Below, in pieces: positions 6,180 through 47,739 of a stretch of 64,000 nucleotides of DNA. Source of the stretch: Argopecten irradians (taxonomy: Eukaryota; Mollusca; Bivalvia; Pectinida; Pectinidae); NCBI RefSeq assembly GCF_041381155.1, contig NC_091135.1, positions 3,055,620 to 3,119,619 of the forward strand. The letters run 5' to 3'. The position numbers and the translations under genes are program-made. Numbering within the stretch: the first letter of the stretch is position 1; each line of letters opens with the position of its first letter. The notes under the pieces were generated by a model. The model had not been told where the DNA came from. It searched no databases and saw only the letters and a program-made list of their open reading frames with translations.

Positions 6180-8105
6180 CATAATGTACATACTCTATCG
6201 ATACTATGATTCCCTCGGGTCATCATAGTGATGCATACTTCAATCAATACCATGATTCCCCAGGGTTATCGTTCTTATTCAGATTCTAATAATACCATGA
6301 TTCCCCAGGGTTATCGTTCTTATTCAGATTCTAATAATACCATGATTCCCCCGGGTTATCGTTCTTATTCAGATTCTAATAATACCATGATTCCCCCGGG
6401 TTATCGTTCTTATTCAGATTCTAATAATACCATGATTCCCCCGGGTTATCGTTCTTATTCAGATTCTAATAATACCATGATTCCCCCGGGTTATCGTTCT
6501 TATTCAGATTCTAATAATACCATGATTCCCCCGGGTTATCGTTCTTATTCAGATTCTAATAATACCATGATTCCCCCGGGTTATCGTTCTTATTCAGATT
6601 CTAATAATACCATGATTCCCCCGGGTTATCGTTCTTATTCAGATTCTAATAATACCATGATTCCCCCGGGTTATCGTTCTTATTCAGATTCTAATAATAC
6701 CATGATTCCCAAGAGTCATCGTAGTTATATGTTATAGGTATATAATTACCATGATTTCCCCAAGTCATCATAGTCTCAATATCATGATTCACCCGGGTCA
6801 TCGTGGTTATACAGACTCTATCAATAAAACGATTCGCCGGGGTCATCATAGTTATACAGACTCTATCAATAATACGATTCCCTGGGGTCATAGTTATACA
6901 GACTCTATCAATAAAACGATTCCCCCGGTCATCATAGTTATACAAACTCTTTCAATAAAACGATTCCCCCCGGTCATCATAGTTATACAGACTCTATCAA
7001 TAAAACGATTCCCCCCGGTCATCATAGTTATACAGACTCTTTCAATAAAACGATTCCCCCCGATCATCATAGTTATAAAGACTCTATCAATAAAACGATT
7101 CCCCCCGGTCATCATAGTTATACAGACTCTTTCAATAAAACGATTCCCCCCGGTCATCATAGTTATACAGACTCTATCAATAATACGATTTCCCCGGGTC
7201 ATCATACTTATACAGCCTCTTTCAATAATACGATTCCACCGGGTCATCATAGTTATACAGACTCTATCAATAAAACGATTCCTCGGGGTCATTATAGTTA
7301 TACAGACTCTATCAATAAAATGATTCCCCAGGGTCATCAAAGTTATACAGACTCTATCAATAGAATGATTCCCCAGGGTCATCATAGTTATACAGACTCT
7401 TTCAATAAAACGATTCCCCCCGGTCATCATAGTTATACAGACTCTATCAATAATACGATTTCCCCGGGTCATCATAGTTATACAGACTCTATCAATAAAA
7501 CGATTTCACCGGGTCATCATAGGTATACAGCCTCTTTCAATAAAACGATTCCCCGGGGTCATCATAGTTATACAGGCTCTATCAATAAAACGATTCCCCG
7601 GGGTCATCAAAGTTATACAGACTCTATCAATAGAATGATTCCCCAGGGTCATCATAGTTATACAGACTCTATCAATAAAACGATTCCCCGGGGTCATCAT
7701 AGTTGTACAGTCTCTTTCAATAATACGATTCCCCAGGGTCATCATAGTTATACAGACTCTATCAATAAAACGATTCCACCGGGTCATCATAGGTATACAG
7801 CCTCTTTCAATAAAACGATTCCCGGGGTCATCATAGTTATACAGGCTCTATCAATAAAACGATTCCCCGGGGTCATCATAGTTATACAGACTCTATCAAT
7901 AAAACGATTCCCCAGGGTCATCATAGTTATACAGATTCCATCAATAAAACGATTCCCCGGGGTCATCATAGTTGTACAGTCTCTTTCAATAATACGATTC
8001 CCCAGGGTCATCATAGTTATACAGACTCTATCAATATCACAATTCCCTCGGGGCATCATAGTCACACCATCATGCCCCCGGGTCATCGTAGCTATATACT
8101 TACTT
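6180..8105. repeat. 45-bp minisatellite array, two subfamilies
   Basis: About 43 tandem copies. At 6246-6705 roughly ten copies are almost identical and read ATACCATGATTCCCCCGGG plus a TATTCAGATTCT half. From about 6780 to 8040 the copies belong to a second subfamily containing AAAACGATTCCCC, GGGTCATCATAG and TATACAGACTCTATC. Because 45 is a multiple of three, open frames persist on both strands. On the plus strand a 15-residue repeat NTMIPPGYRSYSDSN runs through 6228-6737, and 7320-8111 is also open. There is no signal peptide, splice context or codon bias, and opposite frames stay open equally well, so a repeat is preferred over a gene. The unit is the reverse complement relative of the array at 13196-20285. 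Confidence 0.95.
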
Positions 8106-13195: not shown

Positions 13196-16100
13196 CAGAC
13201 CGGGAATATGTCACTGGAAATGAATTAGACTACCCGGGGTAACAATGATGGTTCCCCGGGGGTATCGTGATATTGTTACAATATGTCAACTACGATGTCC
13301 CGGGGAGCTATTATATACAAAGTTTATAACAATCATGACAATTATAGTACCGATAGTATATCTATAACTACGATGCTCCAGGTAAATCATAGTACTGATT
13401 GAGTGTGTATATGACTACGATGACCTATTGGAATCATGGCATTGATAAAGTATTATCAAAAAGATGACCCAGGGGTATCATGGTATTGATAGAGTAAATA
13501 TCAAAACAATGACCCTGGTGAACCATGGTATTGATAGAGTAAATATCACAACGATGACCCTGGGGAACCATGGTATTGATAAGAGTATATATCACAGCGA
13601 TGACTCTGGGGAACCATGGCATTGATAAGAGTATATATCACAGCGATGACCCTGGGGAACCATGGCATTGATAAGAGGATATATCACGACGATGACCTAG
13701 CTTGATAACATGGTATTGATAGAGTATATATCACAACGATGACCCTGGGAACCATGGTATTGATAGAGTATATATCACGACGATGACCCTGGGAACCATG
13801 GTATTGATAGAGTATATATCACACGATGACCCTGGGAACCATATTGATAAGAGTATATATCACACGATGACCCTGTGGAACCATGGTATTGATAAGAGTA
13901 TATATCACACGATGACCCTGGAACCATGGTATTGATAAGAGTATATATCACGACGATGACCTGGGGAACCATGGTATTGATAAGAGTATATATCACAACG
14001 ATGACCCTGGGGAACCATGGTATTGATAAGAGTATATATCACAGCGATGACCCTGTGGAACCATGGTATTGATAAGAGTATATATCACAACGATGACCCT
14101 GGGGAACCATGGTATTGATAAGAGTATATATCACAGCGATGACCCTGGGGAACCATGGTATTGATAAGAGTATATATCACGACGATGACCCTGGGGAACC
14201 ATGGTATTGATAAGAGTATATATCACAACGATGACCCTGGGGAACCATGGTATTGATAAGAGTATATATCACAACGATGACCCTGGGGAACCATTGGTAT
14301 TGATAAGAGTATATATCACAACGATGACCCTGGGGAACCATGGTATTGATAAGAGTATATATCACAACGATGACCCTGGGGAACCATGGTATTGATAAGA
14401 GTATATATCACAACGATGACCCTGGGGAACCATGGTATTGATAAGAGTATATATCACAACGATGACCCTGGGGAACCATGGTATTGATAAGAGTATATAT
14501 CACAACGATGACCCTGGGGAACCATGGTATTGATAAGAGTATATATCACAACGATGACCCTGGGGGAACCATGGTATTGATAAGAGTATATATCACAACG
14601 ATGACCCTGGGGAACCATGGTATTGATAAGAGTATATATCACAACGATGACCCTGGGGAACCATGGTATTGATAAGAGTATATATCACAGCGATGACCCT
14701 GGGGAACCATGGTATTGATAAGAGTATATATCACAACGATGACCCTGGGGAACCATGGTATTGATAAGAGTATATATCACGACGATGACCCTGGGGAACC
14801 ATGGTATTGATAGAGTATATATCACAACGATGACCCTGGGGAACCATGGTATTGATAAGAGTATATATCACAACGATGACCCTGGGGAACCATGGTATTG
14901 ATAGAGTATATATCACGACGATGACCCTGGGGAACCATGGTATTGATAAGAGTATATATCACAGCGATGACCCTGGGGAACCATGGTATTGATAGAGTAT
15001 ATATCACAACGATGACCCTGGGGAACCATGGTATTGATAAGAGTATATATCACAGCGATGACCCTGGGGAACCATGGTATTGATAAGAGTATATATCACA
15101 ACGATGACCCTGGGGAACCATGGTATTGATAAGAGTATATATCACAACGATGACCCTGGGGAACCATGGTATTGATAAGAGTATATATCACAACGATGAC
15201 CCTGGGGAACCATGGTATTGATAAGAGTATATATCACAACGATGACCCTGGGGAACCATGGTATTGATAAGAGTATATATCACAACGATGACCCTGGGGA
15301 ACCATGGTATTGATAAGAGTATATATCACAACGATGACCCTGGGGAACCATGTTATTGATAAGAGTATATATCACGACGATGACCTGGGGAACCATGGTA
15401 TTGATAGAGTATATATCACAACGATGACCCTGGGGAACCATGGTATTGATAAGAGTATATATCACAACGATGACCCTGGGGAACCATGGTATTGATAAGA
15501 GTATATATCACGACGATGACCCTGGGGAACCATGGTATTGATAAGAGTATATATCACAACGATGACCCTGGGGAACCATGGTATTGATAAGAGTATATAT
15601 CACGACGATGACCCTGGGGAACCATGGTATTGATAAGAGTATATATCACAACGATGACCCTGGGGAACCATGGTATTGATAAGAGTATATATCACAACGA
15701 TGACCCTGGGGAACCATGGTATTGATAGAGTATATATCACAACGATGACCCCGGGGGAACCATGGTATTGATAAGAGTATATATCACCCGATGACCCTGG
15801 GGAACCATGGTATTGATAAGAGTATATATCACGACGATGACCCTGGGGAACCATTGTATTGATAAGAGTATATATCACGACGATGACCCTGGGGAACCAT
15901 TGTATTGATAAGAGTATATATCACGACGATGACCCTGGGGAACCATGGTATTGATAAGAGTATATATCACCACGATGACCCTGGGGAACCATGGTATTGA
16001 TAAGAGTATATATCACAACGATGACCCAGGGGAACCATTGTATTGATAAGAGTATATATCACGACGATGACCCTGGGGAACCATGGTATTGATAGAGTAT

Positions 16101-19100
16101 ATATCACAACGATGACCCTGGGGAACCATGTTATTGGTAAGAGTATATATCACGACGATGACCCTGGGGAACCATGGTATTGATAAGAGTATATATCACG
16201 ACGATGACCCTGGGGAACCATGGTATTGATAAGAGTATATATCACAACGATGACCCTGGGGAACCATTGTATTGATAAGAGTATATATCACAACGATGAC
16301 CCTGGGGAACCATGGTATTGATAAGAGTATATATCACAACGATGACCCTGGGGAACCATGGTATTGATAAGAGTATATATCACAACGATGACCCTGGGAA
16401 CCATGGTATTGATAGAGTATATATCACAACGATGACCCTGGGGAACCATGGTATTGATAAGAGTATATATCACAGCGATGACCCTGGGGAACCATGGTAT
16501 TGATAAGAGTATATATCACAACGATGACCCTGGGGAACCATGGTATTGATAAGAGTATATATCACAACGATGACCCTGGGGAACCATGGTATTGATAAGA
16601 GTATATATCACAACGATGACCCTGGGGAACCATGGTATTGATAAGAGTATATATCACGACGATGACCCTGGGGAACCATGGTATTGATAAGAGTATATAT
16701 CACAACGATGACCCTGGGGAACCATGGTATTGATAAGAGTATATATCACAACGATGACCCTGGGGAACCATGGTATTGATAAGAGTATATATTATCACAA
16801 CGATGACCCTGGGGAACCATTGTATTGATAAGAGTATATATCACCACGATGACCCTGGGGAACCATTGTATTGATAAAAGTATATATCACGACGATGACC
16901 CTGGGGAACCATGGTATTGATAAGAGTATATATCACGACGATGACCCTGGGGAACCATGGTATTGATAGAGTATATATCACGACGATGACCCTGGGGAAC
17001 CATTGTATTGATAAGAGTATATATCACGACGATGACCCTGGGGAACCATGGTATTGATAGAGTATATATCACGACGATGACCCTGGGGAACCATGGTATT
17101 GATAAGAGTATATATCACAACGATGACCCTGGGGAACCATGGTATTGATAGAGTATATATCACAACGATGACCCTGGGGAACCATGGTATTGATAAGAGT
17201 ATATATCACGACGATGACCCTGGGGAACCATGGTATTGATAAGAGTATATATCACAGCGATGACCCTGGGGAACCATGGTATTGATAAGAGTATATATCA
17301 CAACGATGACCCTGGGGAACCATGGTATTGATAAGAGTATATATCACAACGATGACCCTGGGGAACCATGGTATTGATAAGAGTATATATCACAACGATG
17401 ACCCTGGGAACCATGGTATTGATAAGAGTATATATCACAACGATGACCCTGGGGAACCATGGTATTGATAAGAGTATATATCACGACGATGACCCTGGGG
17501 AACCATGGTATTGATAAGAGTATATATCACGACGATGACCCTGGGGAACCATGGTATTGATAGAGTATATATCACAACGATGACCCTGGGGAACCATGGT
17601 ATTGATAAGAGTATATATCACAGCGATGACCCTGGGGAACCATGGTATTGATAAGAGTATATATCACGACGATGACCCTGGGGAACCATGGTATTGATAA
17701 GAGTATATATCACAACGATGACCCTGGGGAACCATGGTATTGATAAGAGTATATATCACAACGATGACCCTGGGGAACCATGGTATTGATAAGAGTATAT
17801 ATCACGACGATGACCCTGGGGAACCATGGTATTGATAGAGTATATATCACACAACGATGACCCTGGGGAACCATGGTATTGATAAGAGTATATATCACAA
17901 CGATGACCCTGGGGAACCATTGTATTGATAAGAGTATATATCACGACGATGACCCTGGGGAACCATGGTATTGATAAGAGTATATATCACGACGATGACC
18001 CTGGGGAACCATTGTATTGATAAGAGTATATATCACGACGATGACCCTGGGGAACCATGGTATTGATAAGAGTATATATCACGACGATGACCCTGGGGAA
18101 CCATTGTATTGATAAGAGTATATATCACGACGATGACCCTGGGGAACCATTGTATTGATAAGAGTATATATCACGACGATGACCCTGGGGAACCATGGTA
18201 TTGATAAGAGTATATATCACGACGATGACCCTGGGAACCATTGTATTGATAAGAGTATATATCACAACGATGACCCTGGGGAACCATGGTATTGATAGGG
18301 TATATATCACGACGATGACCCTGGGGAACCATGGTATTGATAGAGTATATATCACAACGATGACCCTGGGGAACCATGGTATTGATAAGAGTAGTATATA
18401 TCACAACGATGACCCTGGGGAACCATGGTATTGATAAGAGTATATATCACACGATGACCCTGGGGAACCATGGTATTGATAAGAGTATATATCACAACGA
18501 TGACCCTGGGGAACCATGGTATTGATAAGAGTATATATCACGACGATGACCCTGGGGAACCATTGTATTGATAAGAGTATATATCACAACGATGACCCTG
18601 GGGAACCATGGTATTGATAAGAGTATATATCACAACGATGACCCTGGGGAACCATGGTATTGATAAGAGTATATATCACAACGATGACCCTGGGGAACCA
18701 TTGTATTGATAAGAGTATATATCACGACGATGACCCTGGGGAACCATGGTATTGATAGAGTATATATCACGACGATGACCCTGGGGAACCATGGTATTGA
18801 TAAGAGTATATATCACAACGATGACCCTGGGGAACCATGGTATTGATAGAGTATATATCACGACGATGACCCTGGGGAACCATGGTATTGATAAGAGTTA
18901 TATATCACGACGATGACCCTGGGGAACCATGGTATTGATAAGAGTATATATCACGACGATGACCCTGGGGAACCATGGTATTGATAAGAGTATATATCAC
19001 GACGATGACCCTGGGGAACCATTGTATTGATAAGAGTATATATCACGACGATGACCCTGGGGAACCATGGTATTGATAAGAGTATATATCACGACGATGA

Positions 19101-20285
19101 CCCTGGGGAACCATTGTATTGATAAGAGTATATATCACGACGATGACCCTGGGGAACCATGTTATTTGATAGAGTATATATCACGACGATGACCCTGGGG
19201 AACCATTGTATTGATAAGAGTATATATCACAACGATGACCCTGGGGAACCATTGTATTGGTAAGAGTATATATCACGACGATGACCCTGGGGAACCATGT
19301 TATTGATAAGAGTATATATCACGACGATGACCCTGGGGAACCATGGTATTGATAAGAGTATATATCATCACGACGATGACCTTGGGGAACCATGTTATTG
19401 GTAAGAGTATATATCACAACGATGACCCTGGGGAACCATGTTATTGATAAGAGTATATATCACGACGATGACCCTGGGGAACCATTGTATTGATAAGAGT
19501 ATATATCACAACGATGACCCTGGGGAACCATTGATGATAAGAGTATATATCACGACGATGACCTGGGAACCATGTATTGGTAAGAGTATATATCACAGGA
19601 TGACCCTGGGGAACCATGGTATTGGTAAGAGTATATATATCACAGACGATGACCCTGGGGAACCATGGTATTGATAAGAGTATATATCACGACGATGACC
19701 CTGGGGAACCATGTTATTGATAAGAGTATATATCACGACGATGACCCTGGGGAACCATGTTATTGGTAAGAGTATATATCACAATGATGACCCTGGGAAC
19801 CATGTTATTGATAAGAGTATATATCACAACGATGACCCTGGGGAACCATTGTATTGGTAAGAGTATATATCACAACGATGACCCTGGGGAACCATTGTAT
19901 TGGTAAGAGTATATATCACAACGATGACCCTGGGGAACCATGTTATTGGTAAGAGTATATATCACAACGATGACCCTGGGGAACCATTGTATTGGTAAGA
20001 GTATATATCACCACGATGACCCTGGGGAACCATTGTATTGATAAGAGTATATATCACAGTGATGACCCTGGGGAACCATGTTATTGATAAGAGTATATAT
20101 CATGACGATGACCCTGGGGAACTGTGTTATTAAACAGTAAGGATATATTAATGAGGTGACCCCTGGTAACCATTGATTGCATTAAACAGTGAAAACTTTT
20201 AAGCACGAAAGTAAAGTTAGGTGAACCGGGGAATCATTGTTTTAAACATTTATTATATATGGTGACCCCGGGGAACCATAGCATG
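13196..20285. repeat. 45/46-bp minisatellite array, about 150 copies
   Basis: A 7-kb array of units read on the plus strand as TTGATAAGAGTATATATCAC, AACGATGACCCTGG and GGAACCATGGTA. The 46-bp form (GATAAGAG) dominates and a 45-bp form (GATAGAG) is interspersed. Both edges are degenerate: GGTAACAATGATGG and neighbours at 13230-13430, and single diverged units to 20280. Near the right end (19140-20110) a CATGTTATTGGTAAGAG variant accumulates, so homogenisation is local. Reverse-complemented, the unit shares TTCCCC, GGGTCATC and CTCTATCAATA with the 6180-8105 array. Confidence 0.97.
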
Positions 20286-39218: not shown

Positions 39219-42200
39219 ATGTCGACTGCAGATTCTATGCAGGGTTCTATGCAGGGTTTGACTACGTCCAAGTTAGAGTTTAAAAAGGGCAGCAGTCGTG
39301 ACCGGCTAATTTTGGGGTTGATCATCATAGGCGGGCTCGCCCTGGTGATTGGTTTAGCCGTGGGGATACCTTTGTCCAAACGAGCCGCTGTGCCCGGTCC
39401 AACGCATGATCCAAACATTGCATTCGCCCGAACGTTCCTGCAGAGTAATGTGTTAATTGATGGGTAAGGTGAAAAACAGGATCACAAATATAAACATCTA
39501 TAAATCTAAAATTTAGAGAAAAGAAGCGCAAGAAAAGTCAAGATTGTAAAATTTTCTGAGGATATTGATAATCAGTTCCACTTTTTCAAAGCTGCTGATG
39601 TTGTTAACACCATGCTGATATATCATCAAGAAGCAAGTCCACACCACATATCCAATCTTTCATGACAAGAAATTAACTGTACTGGATTTACACATTGTAT
39701 AAAATATTGTTTTTGATATTTCTCCATTTGATATTGAAATACCAACAAACTGCGACGCCGTTTAGATACGTAACGTGTCAGATCTGGGACGGTTGTCAGG
39801 TAGTTAAAGAAGCTTCACCAGCAGAACACCCAGCTAGTGTCTGACCATTAACTTTTCTCCTCTCTTGTTCTAGATTAATATGTACTTATAATGCTTTTGA
39901 TCATTTGCGTTTGATTCTGATTGCAGCCACAATGATCTGCCATGGCAGTATCGTCAGTTTTCAAAAAACCACATTTACAATGTTAGTCTGAATGAGGACA
40001 CGAGGATACAATGGCGTAGAGATATGGAAATGACAGACGAATCGTTTCCATTTCTCCCTCCGCAGACGGATATACCAAGGTTACGGGAAGGTGGCGTAGG
40101 TGCCGTGGTAAGTACGAGATATCTTGTTTCAAGTATCCGATATACCAGGGTTACTGGAAGATGACTTATATGGCCCGTGGTAAGTACGATATATCTTGTG
40201 TCTGGTATCCGATATACCAAGGTTACTGGAAGATGACTAAGGCCTTCATCCTTTTGGATACTAAACATTACATATAAAACGTGGCATTTTGTGTAGGGAA
40301 TGAATTGCATGCTTTTAAGGAAAAAAAATTGTGTGTTTTTAGTGGTGGGCGGCTTTCGTGTCCTGTAGTGCCACGGGTAAGGATGCAGTTAGACAAGGCT
40401 TTGACCAGGTAGATGTTATTCACAAGTTTACTGCAAAATACCCAGAAACGTTTACACTGGCTTTGACTGCACACGGTAAGTTAGTGTCGTTAAAGACCCA
40501 CTACCTTACCGACTTTAATTTTTAAAATGGGAACGTAAAATGAGACCGAAAATTTTGTAAAGTTACAAAAGTTATTAACTTACCGTTGATATTACACTCA
40601 TCATCATCTTCGGGAAAAAAATAATTAAGATGAATAAAATGTCAACTTTTATAACGCGGGTCCTCCTATGTTTCCTGCCGTCGTCCTAAATACCACGCGG
40701 TATTTGACTATTACTACGCTAGACGGCAAAACAGCGAAATAAATTTTGACAGTCATCACATATAACGCAGGAAATCTTGCATTTGTCTGGTGTTGTTACC
40801 TAATCTTAGTTTAAACAATATTTTATTCAAATATATACATACATATACACCAATACATACAGACAGCTAGGATGGGAAAACAAGCTAAGAGCTTATATTA
40901 ACCTCATCTTAGGTCATCGATATGTATTTTTATGTTGTTAATATTTTCAGGAAGCTTTTTAATTTTGCTCCGGAAAGGTAGTGGGGGTCTCTTATGGTCT
41001 AACTGATCAAAAGTTCATATAACAATAAGTCATTGTTTGATATTTAATTAAATTGAAATTGGGAGTTGAATGAACAGTAGCCAACGGTTTAATATCTAAA
41101 TACAAATGCTCAAGTGGAGACAGTTAATCAATAAAATGGTTTATCATTTATAACGAAAACACATTATACTTATTATTGTAGATATTGAAACGACATTTGA
41201 TGACGGCAAAATCTCGAGTCTGATTGGTCTGGAAGGGGGGCACACTATCGGAAATACACTCGGAGTTCTCCGGATGTATTATAGAGTTGGTGTTCGCTAT
41301 ATGACCTTGACCCACAGCTGTGACAATGACTGGTAAGCGATTACGTACATGTATCTGTCACGTGAATGGTTACCAATTTTCGGTATTAAATTATTAGTTT
41401 AAGCTACACGTATAGATATATATATGTATGTTTATTAAAGTGTAGTAAATAGCAATAATAAATGACGATTATGCATGGAAAAATTATTATGTAATAGATG
41501 TTTGATGCCTAAAATATTTTTGAATTGTACTGCATAACTATATTAATTTAATCATTGCACTTGTCTTTAATCACACGAACACGGTGCACCTTTCTTGACA
41601 TATTTTAAATGAAGATACCAAATGTGTTCAACGAAAAAGTCAGTTGATGTCAAGTTAAAATAGTTCGAATTTAGGTTGGCAGGAGAACATGCCTCAGTAC
41701 GCTTTTTAAATAAACACAGAATTATGTGGAATCTAAGATATAAATTTCTCATATGTCAACTACAAATCAATGCTTTAGTAATATTCCTTTAGAAAAATCA
41801 CATTTAATACAATTATGAAAGCAAGCTAGGTCATATATGGTACAAAGGAAACACTTAGTTTTCCATGGTCTAGATTATAATAACATTTTATATTTTTGTC
41901 AGGGCCGACAACTACAAGGCTGACCTAAATGGTGGAGTATCGACGGGGTTAACAGATTTCGGCAGGGTAAGGTCATCAATCTGCATATCAAACATTTTTA
42001 TCATTCGTGCTTTTATTATCAGAACTCGGCAAACGAAATGAACTTTGTATAAAAAAATGGGTTCAGCGTCCAGACAAAATGGAGGGTATAAAGGTATTGG
42101 ATGTCAGTGACAGTTTATAAATCATAATGTATCGATAAGCGAAATATCTTTAGAAAAGGTCTCTATAGAAGGCTAAGTCATTTAGGATATCTTCGTATAT

Positions 42201-45200
42201 AAACTATTGGAGACTTAGTCAAACGACCCCAAACAAAAACGGGCCAGTAATTAATCAACCCAGTAAACACGACATAAATGAACTATTTTGATACTGTTGT
42301 TGAAATAGCGATTAATCTAATAAAACGGTTAGTTGGTCCAGAATATTTAATTGATGACGTGGAAAATAAAGAAAAGATATCAGTCGCTTCAACTTTTCGC
42401 TGGATCTACATATTTTTTTGAATTGTTGACAATTGTTACAGTATCTAATGTGCATTTAATCCCAAAATGCAAATATAACTTGATACATCCATGGACAATG
42501 GAATCGAATAAAATATCTTAACAATTATGACGTACTGTCTATTATTAATAGGAGGTTTTCAGTTGACCTAACATTTTAAATAGATGAATTAAACGATCAT
42601 TTTCTTAACGCGAGTCCTCTTATTTTCCCCTATAAACCAAACCGTAGTTTACTCTCACTACGCCACACCGCAAAACAGTTAAATGACTTCCTTATTAACA
42701 TGGTGTTTCACAGGTAATATTGCATTTGTCCATACCATAGATGTACCATTTAATATTATGATCATTATTGTTAAACTTTATTTTTCTTAAAACTATAAGA
42801 AAATGGTTGTACTGCTTTTATCTGTGATTTTGATCCAATGTGATATTTGTAGACCGTGGTCCACGAGATGAATAGGCTGGGGATGATTATAGATGTGTCC
42901 CACGTGTCCTATCAGACTATGAAGGACGCAATACTGACATCGGAGGCCCCCGTCATCTTCAGTCACTCCTCAGTGTTCACTCTTTGTAACCACTACAGAA
43001 ATGTCCAGGATGATGTGCTCTTGCTTCTCGTAAGTTTTAGATACATCTGACCACCAAACAAAGGGTCCAATAGCTACCTAAATAATGATTCACCGAATTA
43101 GATATTAAATTGTGCAAGACGGACAATTAGCTAGATGGATGAAACGACAACCAAACAGACGTATACAACACAAGCGAGCGAACTTTATATATCATTCACT
43201 GATATGCATATGCTTGGCTTGAACTTGGTTACAATGGTTTGATGATTATTTGGCGAGTTAAAAGTCACTTTGCCATAAAGATGCCCGCATGTAGTTCGAC
43301 GACGCGTAGCTTATTGTTAAAATACCTATATAAATATCGATTCAGTAAGTAGAAATGCATGGAATAGTTATTCAAAATCAATAAGATTCGTTATCAAAGC
43401 TACTATAAAGATTTTTGAATGTTAATGAGTATCTTTTTGCTTATGCAGATATCACTACACTTTATTTGAATTGGCCATGAAAAAACATCCATGTGAATCT
43501 GGTCTTCTTATACATGATTTAGGTGTGGTAGTAACAGGTCACACAAATCGGAATTGTTGGATATAGAAGTTGTTTTTACAGATACATTGTACTAAAGACG
43601 CTCGTTTAAGTTTCGTCTTTTGTAACTTAAAAGAAAGTCATTCGCATGAAATAAATTCCATATCCAACAATAACTAACCTCTATTTATCTGATTTTCAGA
43701 AACAAAATGGCGGCATCATTATGATCAACTTTTACACGGGCTACATTCAATGTACCGACGACCATGCCAATACTACGACTGTGGGACAAGTAGCAGGTAA
43801 GAAGCATTTCACATATACATATTTTAATTGTTCACAATTTTGTTATATTATATATATTTGTTTACTACGAACATACAACTAAATTTAAATTATTTAAGCA
43901 TTTATATCTGAGCAGCGTCACATTACAGAATGAAAGTTTATGGTTTGTTGTATTGGCTTAGAAAAATATTGCATCGAAATATAAAATTGAGTCTACTGGC
44001 GAGGGCTTAAATGTATCATATCAGTGCTGTTATGTTAATCACAATCCACATGCTAGCCTAAAACAATAATACTACTGGTCTCCTTAGGTACAACCTTATA
44101 GCCATAGCTGAGGGAGTAGTAGGCCAATCACATGGAAATTGTTACGCTCCAATACAAGATCTAACAATGCCCGTTCAGGATCACCTCAGCATGACCCCAA
44201 TCAGCGTGTCGCCTACGGAATCTTCGGACGGGTTCATTCAGTCGGAAATATAAATGGCTAACAGTACGTCCAGATATGTTCCGATTCTAGGCCATGGGTC
44301 ATGCTGAGGTGACCCCGAACGGAGCATTGTTAGATATTGTATTGAAGCGTAACGTAGCATCGTAGTGGAGCGGAATTACAAGTCTTATTTTAATTAACTT
44401 ACATTGGTTAGATCACAATTACACGGTATCGATTTGAAATCAAAAGTGAATACAGAATATGTCATAGCAATATCACTAGGAATATGAAAAAAATATATAT
44501 CTGTTTAATGGTATTGTTTGGTTATAGATCATTTTGACTATGTGAAGAATCTCATCGGTATTGACCATGTCGCAGTAGGCGCAGACTACGATGGTGTTCC
44601 ATCGTAAGTAAAGTAGGGCTAGACTATAATGGTGTTACTTCGTAATTATAGTAGGGTTAGACTATAATGTTGTTCCTTCGTAAGTATAGTAGGGTTAGAC
44701 TACGATAGTGTTCCTTCGTAAGTATAGTAGGGTTAGACTATAATGTTGTTCCTTCGTAAGTATAGTAGGGTTAGACTATAATGTTGTTCCTTCGTAAGTA
44801 TAGTACTATAATGTTGTTCCTTCGTAAGTATAGTAGGGTTAGACTATAATGTTGTTCCTTCGTAAGTATAGTAGGGTTAGACTATAATGTTGTTCCTTCG
44901 TAAGTATAGTAGGGTTTGACTATAATGTTGTTCCTTCGTAAGTATAGTAGGGTTAGACTACGATGTTGTTCCTTCGTAAGTATAGTAGGGTTAGACTATA
45001 ATGTTGTTCCTTCGTAAGTATAGTAGGGTTAGACTATAATGTTGTTCCTTCGTAAGTATAGTAGGGTTAGACTATAATGTTGTTCCTTCGTAAGTATAGT
45101 AGGGTTAGACTATAATGTTGTTCCTTCGTAAGTATAGTAGGGTTAGACTACGATAGTGTTTCTTCGTAAGTATAGTAGGGTTAGACTATAATGTTGTTCC

Positions 45201-47739
45201 TTCGTAAGTATAGTAGGGTTAGACTATAATGTTGTTCCTTCGTAAGTATAGTAGGGTTAGACAATAATGTTGTTCCTTCGTAAGTATAGTAGGGTTAGAC
45301 TATAATGTTGTTCCTTCGTAAGTATAGTAGGGTTAGACTATAATGTTGTTCCTTCGTAAGTATAGTAGGGTTTGACTATAATGTTGTTCCTTTGTAAGTA
45401 TAGTAGGGTTAGACTATAATGTTGTTCCTTTGTAAGTACAGAATAGTAAGTATAGTAGGGTTAGACTATAATGTTGTTCCTTCGTAAGTATAGTAGGGTT
45501 AGACTATAATGTTGTTCCTTTGTAAGTATAGTAGGGTTAGACAATAATGTTGTTCCTTCGTAAGTATAGTAGGGTTAGACTACGATAGTGTTCCTTCGTA
45601 AGTATAGTAGGGTTAGACAATAATGTTGTTCCTTCGTAAGTATAGTAGGGTTAGACTATAATGTTGTTCCTTCGTAAGTATAGTAGGGTTAGACTATAAT
45701 GTTGTTCCTTCGTAAGTATAGTAGGGTTAGACTATAATGTTGTTCCTTCGTAAGTATAGTAGGGTTAGACTATAATGTTGTTCCTTCGTAAGTATAGTAG
45801 GGTTAGACTATAATGTTGTTCCTTCGTAAGTATAGTAGGGTTAGACTATAATGTTGTTCCTTCGTAAGTATAGTAGGGTTAGACTATAATGTTGTTCCTT
45901 CGTAAGTATAGTAGGGTTAGACTATAATGTTGTTCCTTCGTAAGTATAGTAGGGTTAGACTATAATGTTGTTCCTTCGTAAGTATAGTAGGGTTAGACTA
46001 TAATGTTGTTCCTTCGTAAGTATAGTAGGGTTAGACTATAATGTTGTTCCTTTGTTAGTACAGTAGGGTGAGACTACGATAATGTTCCTTCGTAAGTATA
46101 GTAGGGTTAGACTATAATGTTGTTCCTTCGTAAGTATAGTAGAGTTAGACTATAATGTTGGTCCTTTGTAAGTATAGTAGGGTTAGACTATAATGTTGTT
46201 CCTTCGTGTAAGTATAGTAGGGTTAAACTATAATGTTGTTCCTTCGTAAGTATAGTAGGGTTAAACTATAATGTTGTTCCTTCGTAAGTATAGTAGGGTT
46301 AGACTATAATGTTGGTCCTTTGTAAGTATAGTAGGGTTAGACTATAATGTTGTTGTTCCTTCGTAAGTATAGTAGGGTTAGACTATAATGTTGTTCCTTC
46401 GTAAGTATAGTAGGGTTTGACTATAATGTTGTTCCTTCGTAAGTACAGTAGGGTTAGACTATAATGTTGTTCCTTCGTAAGTATAGTAGGGTTTGACTAT
46501 AATGTTGTTCCTTCGTAAGTATAGTAGGGTTAGACTATAATGTTGTTCCTTCGTAAGTATAGTAGGGTTAGACTATAATGTTGTTCCTTCGTAAGTATAG
46601 TAGGGTTAGACTCCGATGGTGTTCATTCGTAAGTATAGTAGGGTTAGACTCCGATGGTGTTCATTCGTAAGTATAGTAGGGTTTGACTATAATGTTGTTC
46701 CATCGTAAGTATAGTAGGGTTAGACTATAATGTTGTTCCTTCGTAAGTATAGTAAGGTGAAACTGCGATAGTGTTCCTTCATAAGTTTTGAATTATAATA
46801 AAGGCAGGATACGGTGGTGGTCTTTTGTAAGTATTAAACCATTATAGTAAGATGCACTAATTAACATTACTATGCTGATCACATACAGCAATATTGGTAA
46901 TTGTTATCACATTTTTACTAGAAAATTCTACATATACATGTGATTTTGTTAAACATTAAAGTCTCATTCTCAACAAACCAATTTTGCGTTTGTATGTTTG
47001 GGCGGATTGACTACCGTATAACATACTTGAATGACCGTCACTATTGCATGCATGCACAGTAAATGTATTTGAAAGTAAAAGTATGTAAAAGTATATACAT
47101 GTGAAAAGATAGGGTTATATTATTGAAATCATAGTCATATAAATATATTAGCCTACAAGATTGGGGTCTTTAATCTTTTATCAGAGCAATAACTCTGAAC
47201 AATGTCACCATCATGAACAGGTCGGAAATCCATATGATATTAATAAGTTACAATAAAAAATATAGGAGAGTAAGTAAAGGGAAGTAACTCTTACATCTGA
47301 CATCTGCACCATTGACCTTAACTGATTGCCCTAACTATAGGATGCCGTTGACACTGGAGGACGTATCTACCTACCCCATCATAATAGCAGAACTGCACAA
47401 ACGAAACTGGTCGATAGAGGAGTTGCAGAAAGTGACTGGCCAGAACTTCTTAAGGGTGTTTAGAGATGTAGAAGAGGTAAGTGTCTGCTCCTGGTTTGTC
47501 AATTTGTATTCAGAAATAAGCATTTGTACCTCTTCCTGTCGAAACTTCGTCATTTGTAAATGATAAAAGAGGATTTGGATCAGGTTCCTAATAGATTTGT
47601 ATGTGAATCAAAAATCACTATTTTTTCTCTTTTTTTTTTCCTGCAGGTCAAACGGAACAAATCAAACATGTCACCGTACGAAGACATATTGAATGATGAA
47701 GCTTACATACAGGCACATAATTGTACCTCTAGCTTCTAG
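39219..47739 (+). CDS. Membrane dipeptidase (renal dipeptidase / DPEP family), 10 coding exons
   Basis: Zinc dipeptidase, peptidase family M19, which cleaves dipeptides (in vertebrates cystinyl-glycine and leukotriene D4) at the cell surface. Coding exons: 39219-39463, 39927-40107, 40343-40475, 41182-41332, 41903-41966, 42853-43029, 43700-43796, 44528-44603, 47341-47476, 47647-47739. All junctions are GT-AG and in phase, giving 450 aa. A hydrophobic span at residues 30-52 after a basic cytoplasmic start predicts a type II anchor. Expected metal/catalytic motifs are all present: HND (83-85), EGGH (E204), DVSH (H275), SHSS (H296) and DYDG (369-372). The paired cysteines of the family (VSC, THSC, TLC, IQC) are present. 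Vertebrate DPEP1 (411 aa) instead has a cleaved signal peptide and a hydrophobic GPI tail. This protein ends hydrophilic, NCTSSF. Exon 1 starts at an acceptor (39199), so a 5' leader exon lies upstream. The particular paralogue is not assigned. Confidence 0.95.
40069..40245 (+). repeat. Tandem duplication of the exon 2/intron 2 junction (about 71-bp unit)
   Basis: GATATACCAAGGTTACGGG starts at 40069 inside exon 2 and recurs at 40139 (GATATACCAGGGTTACTGG) and 40211 (GATATACCAAGGTTACTGG). The first copy holds the true donor, GTG/GTAAGTACG at 40108. The second copy keeps a donor, GTG/GTAAGTACG at 40180. The third is truncated before it. Use of the second donor would add 72 nt containing an in-frame TGA. 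Confidence 0.9.
44141..44353. mobile_element. 213-bp hairpin MITE in dipeptidase intron 7
   Basis: The left arm GTTACGCTCCAATACAAGAT runs through CACCTCAGCATGACCCC. It is mirrored at the right by GGGTCATGCTGAGGTGACCC and GATATTGTATTGAAGCGTAAC, giving roughly 58-bp inverted arms. There is no coding frame. A target duplication was not identified. Confidence 0.8.
44584..46790 (+). repeat. 38-bp minisatellite seeded by the exon 8/intron 8 junction, about 57 copies
   Basis: The consensus unit is GACTATAATGTTGTTCCTTC followed by GTAAGTATAGTAGGGTTA. The first unit is exonic at its left: GACTACGATGGTGTTCCATC is the end of exon 8, coding DYDGVPS. The following GTAAGTAAAGTAGGGCTA is the start of intron 8. 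Nearly every copy keeps CGTAAGTAT, a near-perfect 5' splice site. Some internal units keep the older ACGATAGTGTTCC spelling, and there are occasional indels (about 45440 and 46205). Each unit also holds TAGGGTTAG, a telomere-like string that the founder unit lacks (TAGGGCTAG). Confidence 0.97.

Follow-up and report, generated by a model that had tools for sequence, protein, structure and literature searches.

A minisatellite of decoy 5′ splice sites in a scallop dipeptidase gene derives from the exon 8/intron 8 junction

Introduction

Intron 8 of a membrane dipeptidase gene in the scallop Argopecten irradians carries a 5′ splice site that is repeated in tandem dozens of times. The locus raises the questions of where these copies came from, whether the cell makes any use of them, and whether splice junctions are places at which such repeats tend to begin. 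We examined it in a window of 64,000 nucleotides (NC_091135.1, forward-strand positions 3,055,620 to 3,119,619; window positions are counted from its first nucleotide) and in further loci of the same genome.

A comparable system has been described in human. Intron 18 of ABCA7 contains a 25-bp variable number tandem repeat (VNTR) that starts with the exon 18 donor (De Roeck et al. 2018, PMC5954066). The donor opening this VNTR of 12 to 427 copies stays in use, retention of one unit is found independently of array length, and where the array is longer, expression is lower and the following exon is skipped more often. The likeness is that of an intronic minisatellite that adjoins an exon and repeats that exon's donor in every unit. 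The ABCA7 unit is C-rich, 25 bp long and begins at GT, whereas the unit in the scallop intron is AT-rich, 38 bp long and includes 20 nt of coding exon each time; human alleles are moreover length-polymorphic with measured RNA effects, whereas the array described here is known from the DNA of a single assembly.

Results

Origin of the array from the exon 8 junction

The plus strand of the window encodes an M19 membrane dipeptidase, whose joined exons 2 to 9 match human renal dipeptidase DPEP1 (1itq) with an E value of 7e-91. Exon 8 (44528..44603, plus strand, 76 nt), the acceptor of which was inferred from ..GGTTATAG and the reading frame, ends in ..GTT CCA TC|GTAAGT and supplies, with its last 20 nt, the exonic half of the first repeat copy. 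The true 5′ splice site, GTAAGTAAA (44604..44612, plus strand), opens an intron of 2737 nt (44604..47340, plus strand) that is followed by exon 9 (47341..47476, plus strand), which is preceded by ..CTATAG and has the next donor at 47477. Splicing at TC|G joins exon 9 in the same frame as in DPEP1, the alignment being free of gaps across the join (DFDGVPR-VPEGLEDVS), and exons 8 and 9 together match Pfam M19 (E 3e-22). When translation was continued past exon 8 into the intron, DYDGVPS was followed at once by an in-frame TAA stop codon, as an earlier note on this DNA had stated. By eye, we also spotted a MITE-like inverted-repeat element in intron 7, directly upstream of exon 8, and located its ends at 44141-44353.

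The tandem array (44583..46786, plus strand; TRF period 38, 57.7 copies) was resolved into about 58 single units by wraparound alignment starting at the real donor (44604). The founder unit spans the real exon 8/intron 8 junction, with 20 nt of exon and 18 nt of intron. We found 55 intact GTAAGT sites in 44605-46790 when the true site was excluded, which bears out the earlier count of more than fifty decoys, and a broken core in three units, at 44642 (position +5), 46054 (+3) and 46781 (+1). Between consensus and founder, 6 of 38 positions differ, of which four lie in the exon part and two in the intron part. The array adjoins its exon and its unit takes in the true donor, as in a donor-including intronic VNTR. 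The unit-by-unit alignment and the DPEP1 frame agree with the earlier proposal that the unit joins the end of exon 8 to the start of intron 8 and that the true donor is copy one, and they support an origin of the array from this junction.

This genome is rich in tandem repeats, and an array born elsewhere, as a satellite or transposon, could in principle end at exon 8 by chance. However, the exact 37-nt consensus string has 29 matches in the 846-Mb genome, all 29 of them within the intron 8 array (exact matching only), and the unit holds coding sequence that is conserved in M19 paralogues and in DPEP1. A dispersed satellite or transposon origin was rejected on the ground that the exact unit occurs at no other locus by exact matching, and we regard a birth elsewhere as very improbable indeed.

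Growth and homogenization of the array

The two ends of the founder have AGAC in common (GCAGAC in the exon, CTAGAC in the intron), so that short-homology slippage or template switching is the likely route, a hint at how the first duplication may have come about. Unit-by-unit alignment revealed that units at both ends of the array are among the most diverged and that the middle is mostly uniform, with founder-like units scattered within it at 44680, 45128, 45560 and 46054. Adjacent or nearby units share the same variants, for example 46208 and 46246, 46591 and 46629, and 46130 and 46284. Together with the uniform middle, this sharing among neighbours carries the mark of unequal exchange. Since six positions separate founder and consensus, the array is older than its present uniformity. 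Furthermore, an old and diverged copy of the exon-end/donor segment lies beyond the array (46806..46832, plus strand; 20 of 27 bases identical, with none of 2000 shuffles as good), showing that the duplicated segment formerly extended further.

These patterns are best accommodated by homogenization in the absence of selection, which the earlier note had offered as the plain alternative, the donor being matched in quietness by other 6-bp windows of the unit (see below). We consider it probable that a short segment across the exon 8/intron 8 junction underwent neutral tandem duplication, that unequal exchange then expanded and homogenized the array, and that the first donor stayed in use, leaving the remainder as simply intron. 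The choice of donor, the neutrality of the array and the mechanism of duplication are inferred. On this reading, the array would be tolerated because the upstream exon still precedes the first donor, which would be the one used. Decoys would then be used rarely if ever; splicing from one would lengthen the mRNA by 38n nt and bring in a stop at once, and the product would be degraded.

Variation at the donor among copies

The earlier note had pointed to a near-invariant U1-binding part of the unit. In the intron 8 array, 2 of 336 donor cells depart from the majority (0.6%) against 63 of 1792 other cells (3.5%), as counted over 56 units that each cover at least 80% of the consensus, with the unit at 46781, mutated at +1, set aside. 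The scarcity of donor changes therefore stands; a special conservation of the donor does not, because 11% of the 6-bp windows of the unit vary as little as the donor or less. The share of equally quiet 6-bp windows was 0.68 in an enolase array and 0.11 in an ALG3 array, both described below, 0.56 in the second M19 gene, 0.49 at locus L051, and 0.54 and 0.66 in two arrays at locus L040. In none of the seven donor-containing arrays was the donor quieter than 90% of the other 6-bp windows.

When the seven arrays were pooled, 28 of 1320 donor cells varied (2.1%) compared to 296 of 7958 others (3.7%). This leans towards donor conservation, with cells that are non-independent because the copies have common ancestry, and the difference is mostly contributed by the intron 8 array and ALG3. 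Selection on the donor was considered as an explanation and set aside, as consistent support was lacking in the seven arrays tested; there is no consistent sign of such selection across them.

U1 pairing and possible roles of the decoys

The 5′ end of U1 in this genome is ATACTTACCTG, and the decoy sites are complementary to it. The commonest decoy forms 8 continuous pairs with U1 (duplex energy −8.3 kcal/mol), a form shared by 46 of the 59 sites scored, and the true site reaches −7.3 kcal/mol, which makes it one of the weaker donors in this gene (the other eight range from −5.7 to −12.7 kcal/mol). The claim that the decoys had improved on the founder holds for one base only, the consensus change A>T at +8, which adds one U1 pair. 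Since U1 pairing is slightly stronger at the decoys than at a weakish true site, the sequence does not make a preference for the first donor obvious. The in-frame TAA after the true donor means that use of any decoy would end the protein at the same serine, as the earlier note had foreseen. Apart from the array, we observed a tandem cluster of 30 U1 snRNA matches at C7:7837784-7877915, most of them at a spacing of about 1.18 kb, interrupted by a single gap of 6.9 kb.

The decoys might be functional, either docking U1 against premature polyadenylation or keeping the intron in as a retention switch, so that dipeptidase output falls. The 55 intact sites, the identical form of most scored sites and the stop met immediately past the true donor would fit such a role, as would the lower expression and increased next-exon skipping that accompany longer arrays in human ABCA7. 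On the other hand, the donor is conserved no more than other 6-bp windows, and intron 8 of three M19 paralogues lacks a donor array, that of the paralogue on C2 (locus L033) holding only two small AT-rich repeats. Arrays of a like kind also occur in unrelated genes with no common sequence. We therefore judge a function for the decoys unlikely; the three roles put forward in the earlier note, U1 docking, a buffer against splicing noise and a retention switch, find no support here. Judging from the sequence, the array most likely does nothing needed and the first donor is the one used. The parallel with ABCA7 makes it plausible that the dipeptidase gene bears a mild cost that would rise with array length.

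Junction arrays in other genes

The earlier note took the intron 8 array as singular; that impression gave way when several arrays of like kind were found in the same genome. The first copy is a genuine exon end in enolase, in ALG3 and in the second M19 gene; for two more genes the same holds with less certainty. The enolase array on C1 comprises 60 copies of 41 bp (exon Pfam E 5e-10) and the ALG3 array, also on C1, about 50 copies of 37 bp (exon Pfam E 2e-12); in the M19 paralogue on C2, the exon 7 end ..NTTTVYQVAG|GTTAGT opens an array of 23 copies of 61 bp. These three have the same architecture as the intron 8 array and unrelated units. A third exon-end GTAAGT array on C1 follows an exon that resembles V4R weakly (E 0.01, below the cut-off). 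Of the six GTAAGT arrays among the matches listed for the initial 1.6 Mb of C1, three start at an exon end, and no exon-end start was found, judging from flanking frames, for the GTAAGT arrays of loci L037, L039 and L041. The dipeptidase gene of the window itself holds a second junction duplication, in which the end of exon 2 with GTAAGTACG is repeated (40069..40238, plus strand; 72 bp, 2.4 copies, diverged), below the threshold of the junction test described in the next section.

We also surveyed 11 loci of 10 kb each, spaced evenly on C1. With the all-satellite locus L043 set aside, 11 arrays of at least 3 copies and a unit of at least 20 bp were obtained, and one of them, tested by homology, was of the donor-junction kind. 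This one, at L051, has 14 copies of 55 bp and follows an exon that resembles PAS weakly (E 0.011, below the cut-off), in a gene that is presumably AhR. Tandem arrays make up 16% of the 11 loci, more than half of that coming from the one all-satellite locus.

Several further repeats were seen in passing. The entire 10 kb of L043 (C1:8000001-8010000) consists of a 157-bp satellite, and a similar unit was noticed by eye in L036. Within the window, minisatellites at 6187-8062 (45 bp) and 13408-20122 (46 bp, other strand) have, by eye, a common core like ATACCATGRTTCCCCNGGGTYATCGTT, which suggests a single family of dispersed repeats. At L040:1720-2313, the last copy of an 11-copy 54-bp array resembles an intron-exon (acceptor) junction, a mirror of the donor arrays; the exon there has an open frame and gave no Pfam match. 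Intron 7 of the third M19 gene (L035) contains 36 copies of a 39-bp unit starting about 30-70 nt past the exon 7 donor, which is excluded from it, with a related 32-bp stretch at the start of the array.

Donor junctions as birthplaces of arrays

The occurrence of similar arrays in other genes of the same animal suggests that splice signals may often give birth to such repeats. The intron 8 array would then be one product of a general preference, in which 5′ splice junctions seed minisatellites through transcription- or splicing-linked mutation. This reading extends the neutral duplication favoured above and is compatible with it; neither excludes the other.

Two perfect donor words were compared with controls. 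Among the matches listed, CAGGTAAGT was found at 64 loci, 4 of which were arrays of at least 3 copies, and AAGGTAAGT at 23 loci, 1 of which was such an array. A pair of control words matched in composition to CAGGTAAGT gave 98 and 100 loci among the matches listed, with no array of at least 3 copies and 2 pairs; the first 100 places were listed per word, all on C1. Counted by word alone, irrespective of exon status, the contrast is 5 of 87 donor-word loci against 0 of 198 control loci listed (Fisher P 0.002); the five arrays stand at C1 positions 337803, 4915672, 5148387, 5402872 and 487315. Genome-wide, triple-tandem CAGGTAAGT has 3107 matches against 91 for its reversal, the single words differing only 3.6-fold (19404 against 5409), and triple AGGTAAGT has 7905 against 992. 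The exon-end starts of half of the listed GTAAGT arrays at the beginning of C1 point the same way.

However, over the initial 1.6 Mb of C1 the hexamer GTAAGT has 6 array loci and its reversal TGAATG has 5 (13 in 3.56 Mb) among the matches listed, and the 9-mer contrast drops to a Fisher P of 0.03 when pairs are counted too. The listed places all lie on a single chromosome, and the control words sample intergenic DNA as well. As a single word, reversed AAGGTAAGT is in fact commoner than AAGGTAAGT (19562 against 13185 matches). Among 31 donors in four M19 genes, 2 passed a duplication test, one of them the intron 8 array itself, which is no excess over a background of 791 among 13780 sampled 24-mers with a local copy; these donor places were chosen by a weight table, and a few may be wrong, and the duplication at exon 2 in the window did not reach the threshold. 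The 2.6-fold surplus of GTAAGT over the reversed hexamer (87217 against 33483 matches) was rejected as proof, since it reflects array length and no excess is seen at the level of arrays. Collectively, a donor preference in minisatellite birth stands at near even odds, and junction seeding as an account of the intron 8 array falls just short of evenly balanced.

Discussion

The kind of array found in intron 8 is already known, and a possible new point is how frequently it recurs in this genome. The 6-16 gene, which we take to be IFI6, reportedly carries a minisatellite with multiple splice donor sites, to go by the title of a 1995 paper by Turri, Cuin and Porter (NAR 23:1854). By that title, it resembles the present array in being a minisatellite that supplies several splice donors, and it seems to be a second known case beside ABCA7. 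Surplus intronic splice sites are also a feature of the decoy exons and decoy splice sites of retained introns; those are studied as functional decoys, whereas the array here is without a supported function. Among the matches listed in the literature searched, with subscription papers mostly outside it, no genome-wide account of junction-seeded arrays was found.

Such arrays are natural tests of how the spliceosome picks the first among dozens of near-equal donors, and ABCA7 shows that they can bear on disease. It is a serious though rather doubtful possibility that 5′ splice junctions are minisatellite hot spots in this animal, in which case, among introns that have a perfect donor, several per cent would open with an array whose first copy is the real junction and would have dozens of decoys downstream for the spliceosome to pass over. 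If true, this would suggest that tandem duplication has a source linked to splicing or transcription. Should seeding at junctions be common, the genome would provide many independent cases in which to study intron growth, the start of minisatellites and the limits on decoy use.
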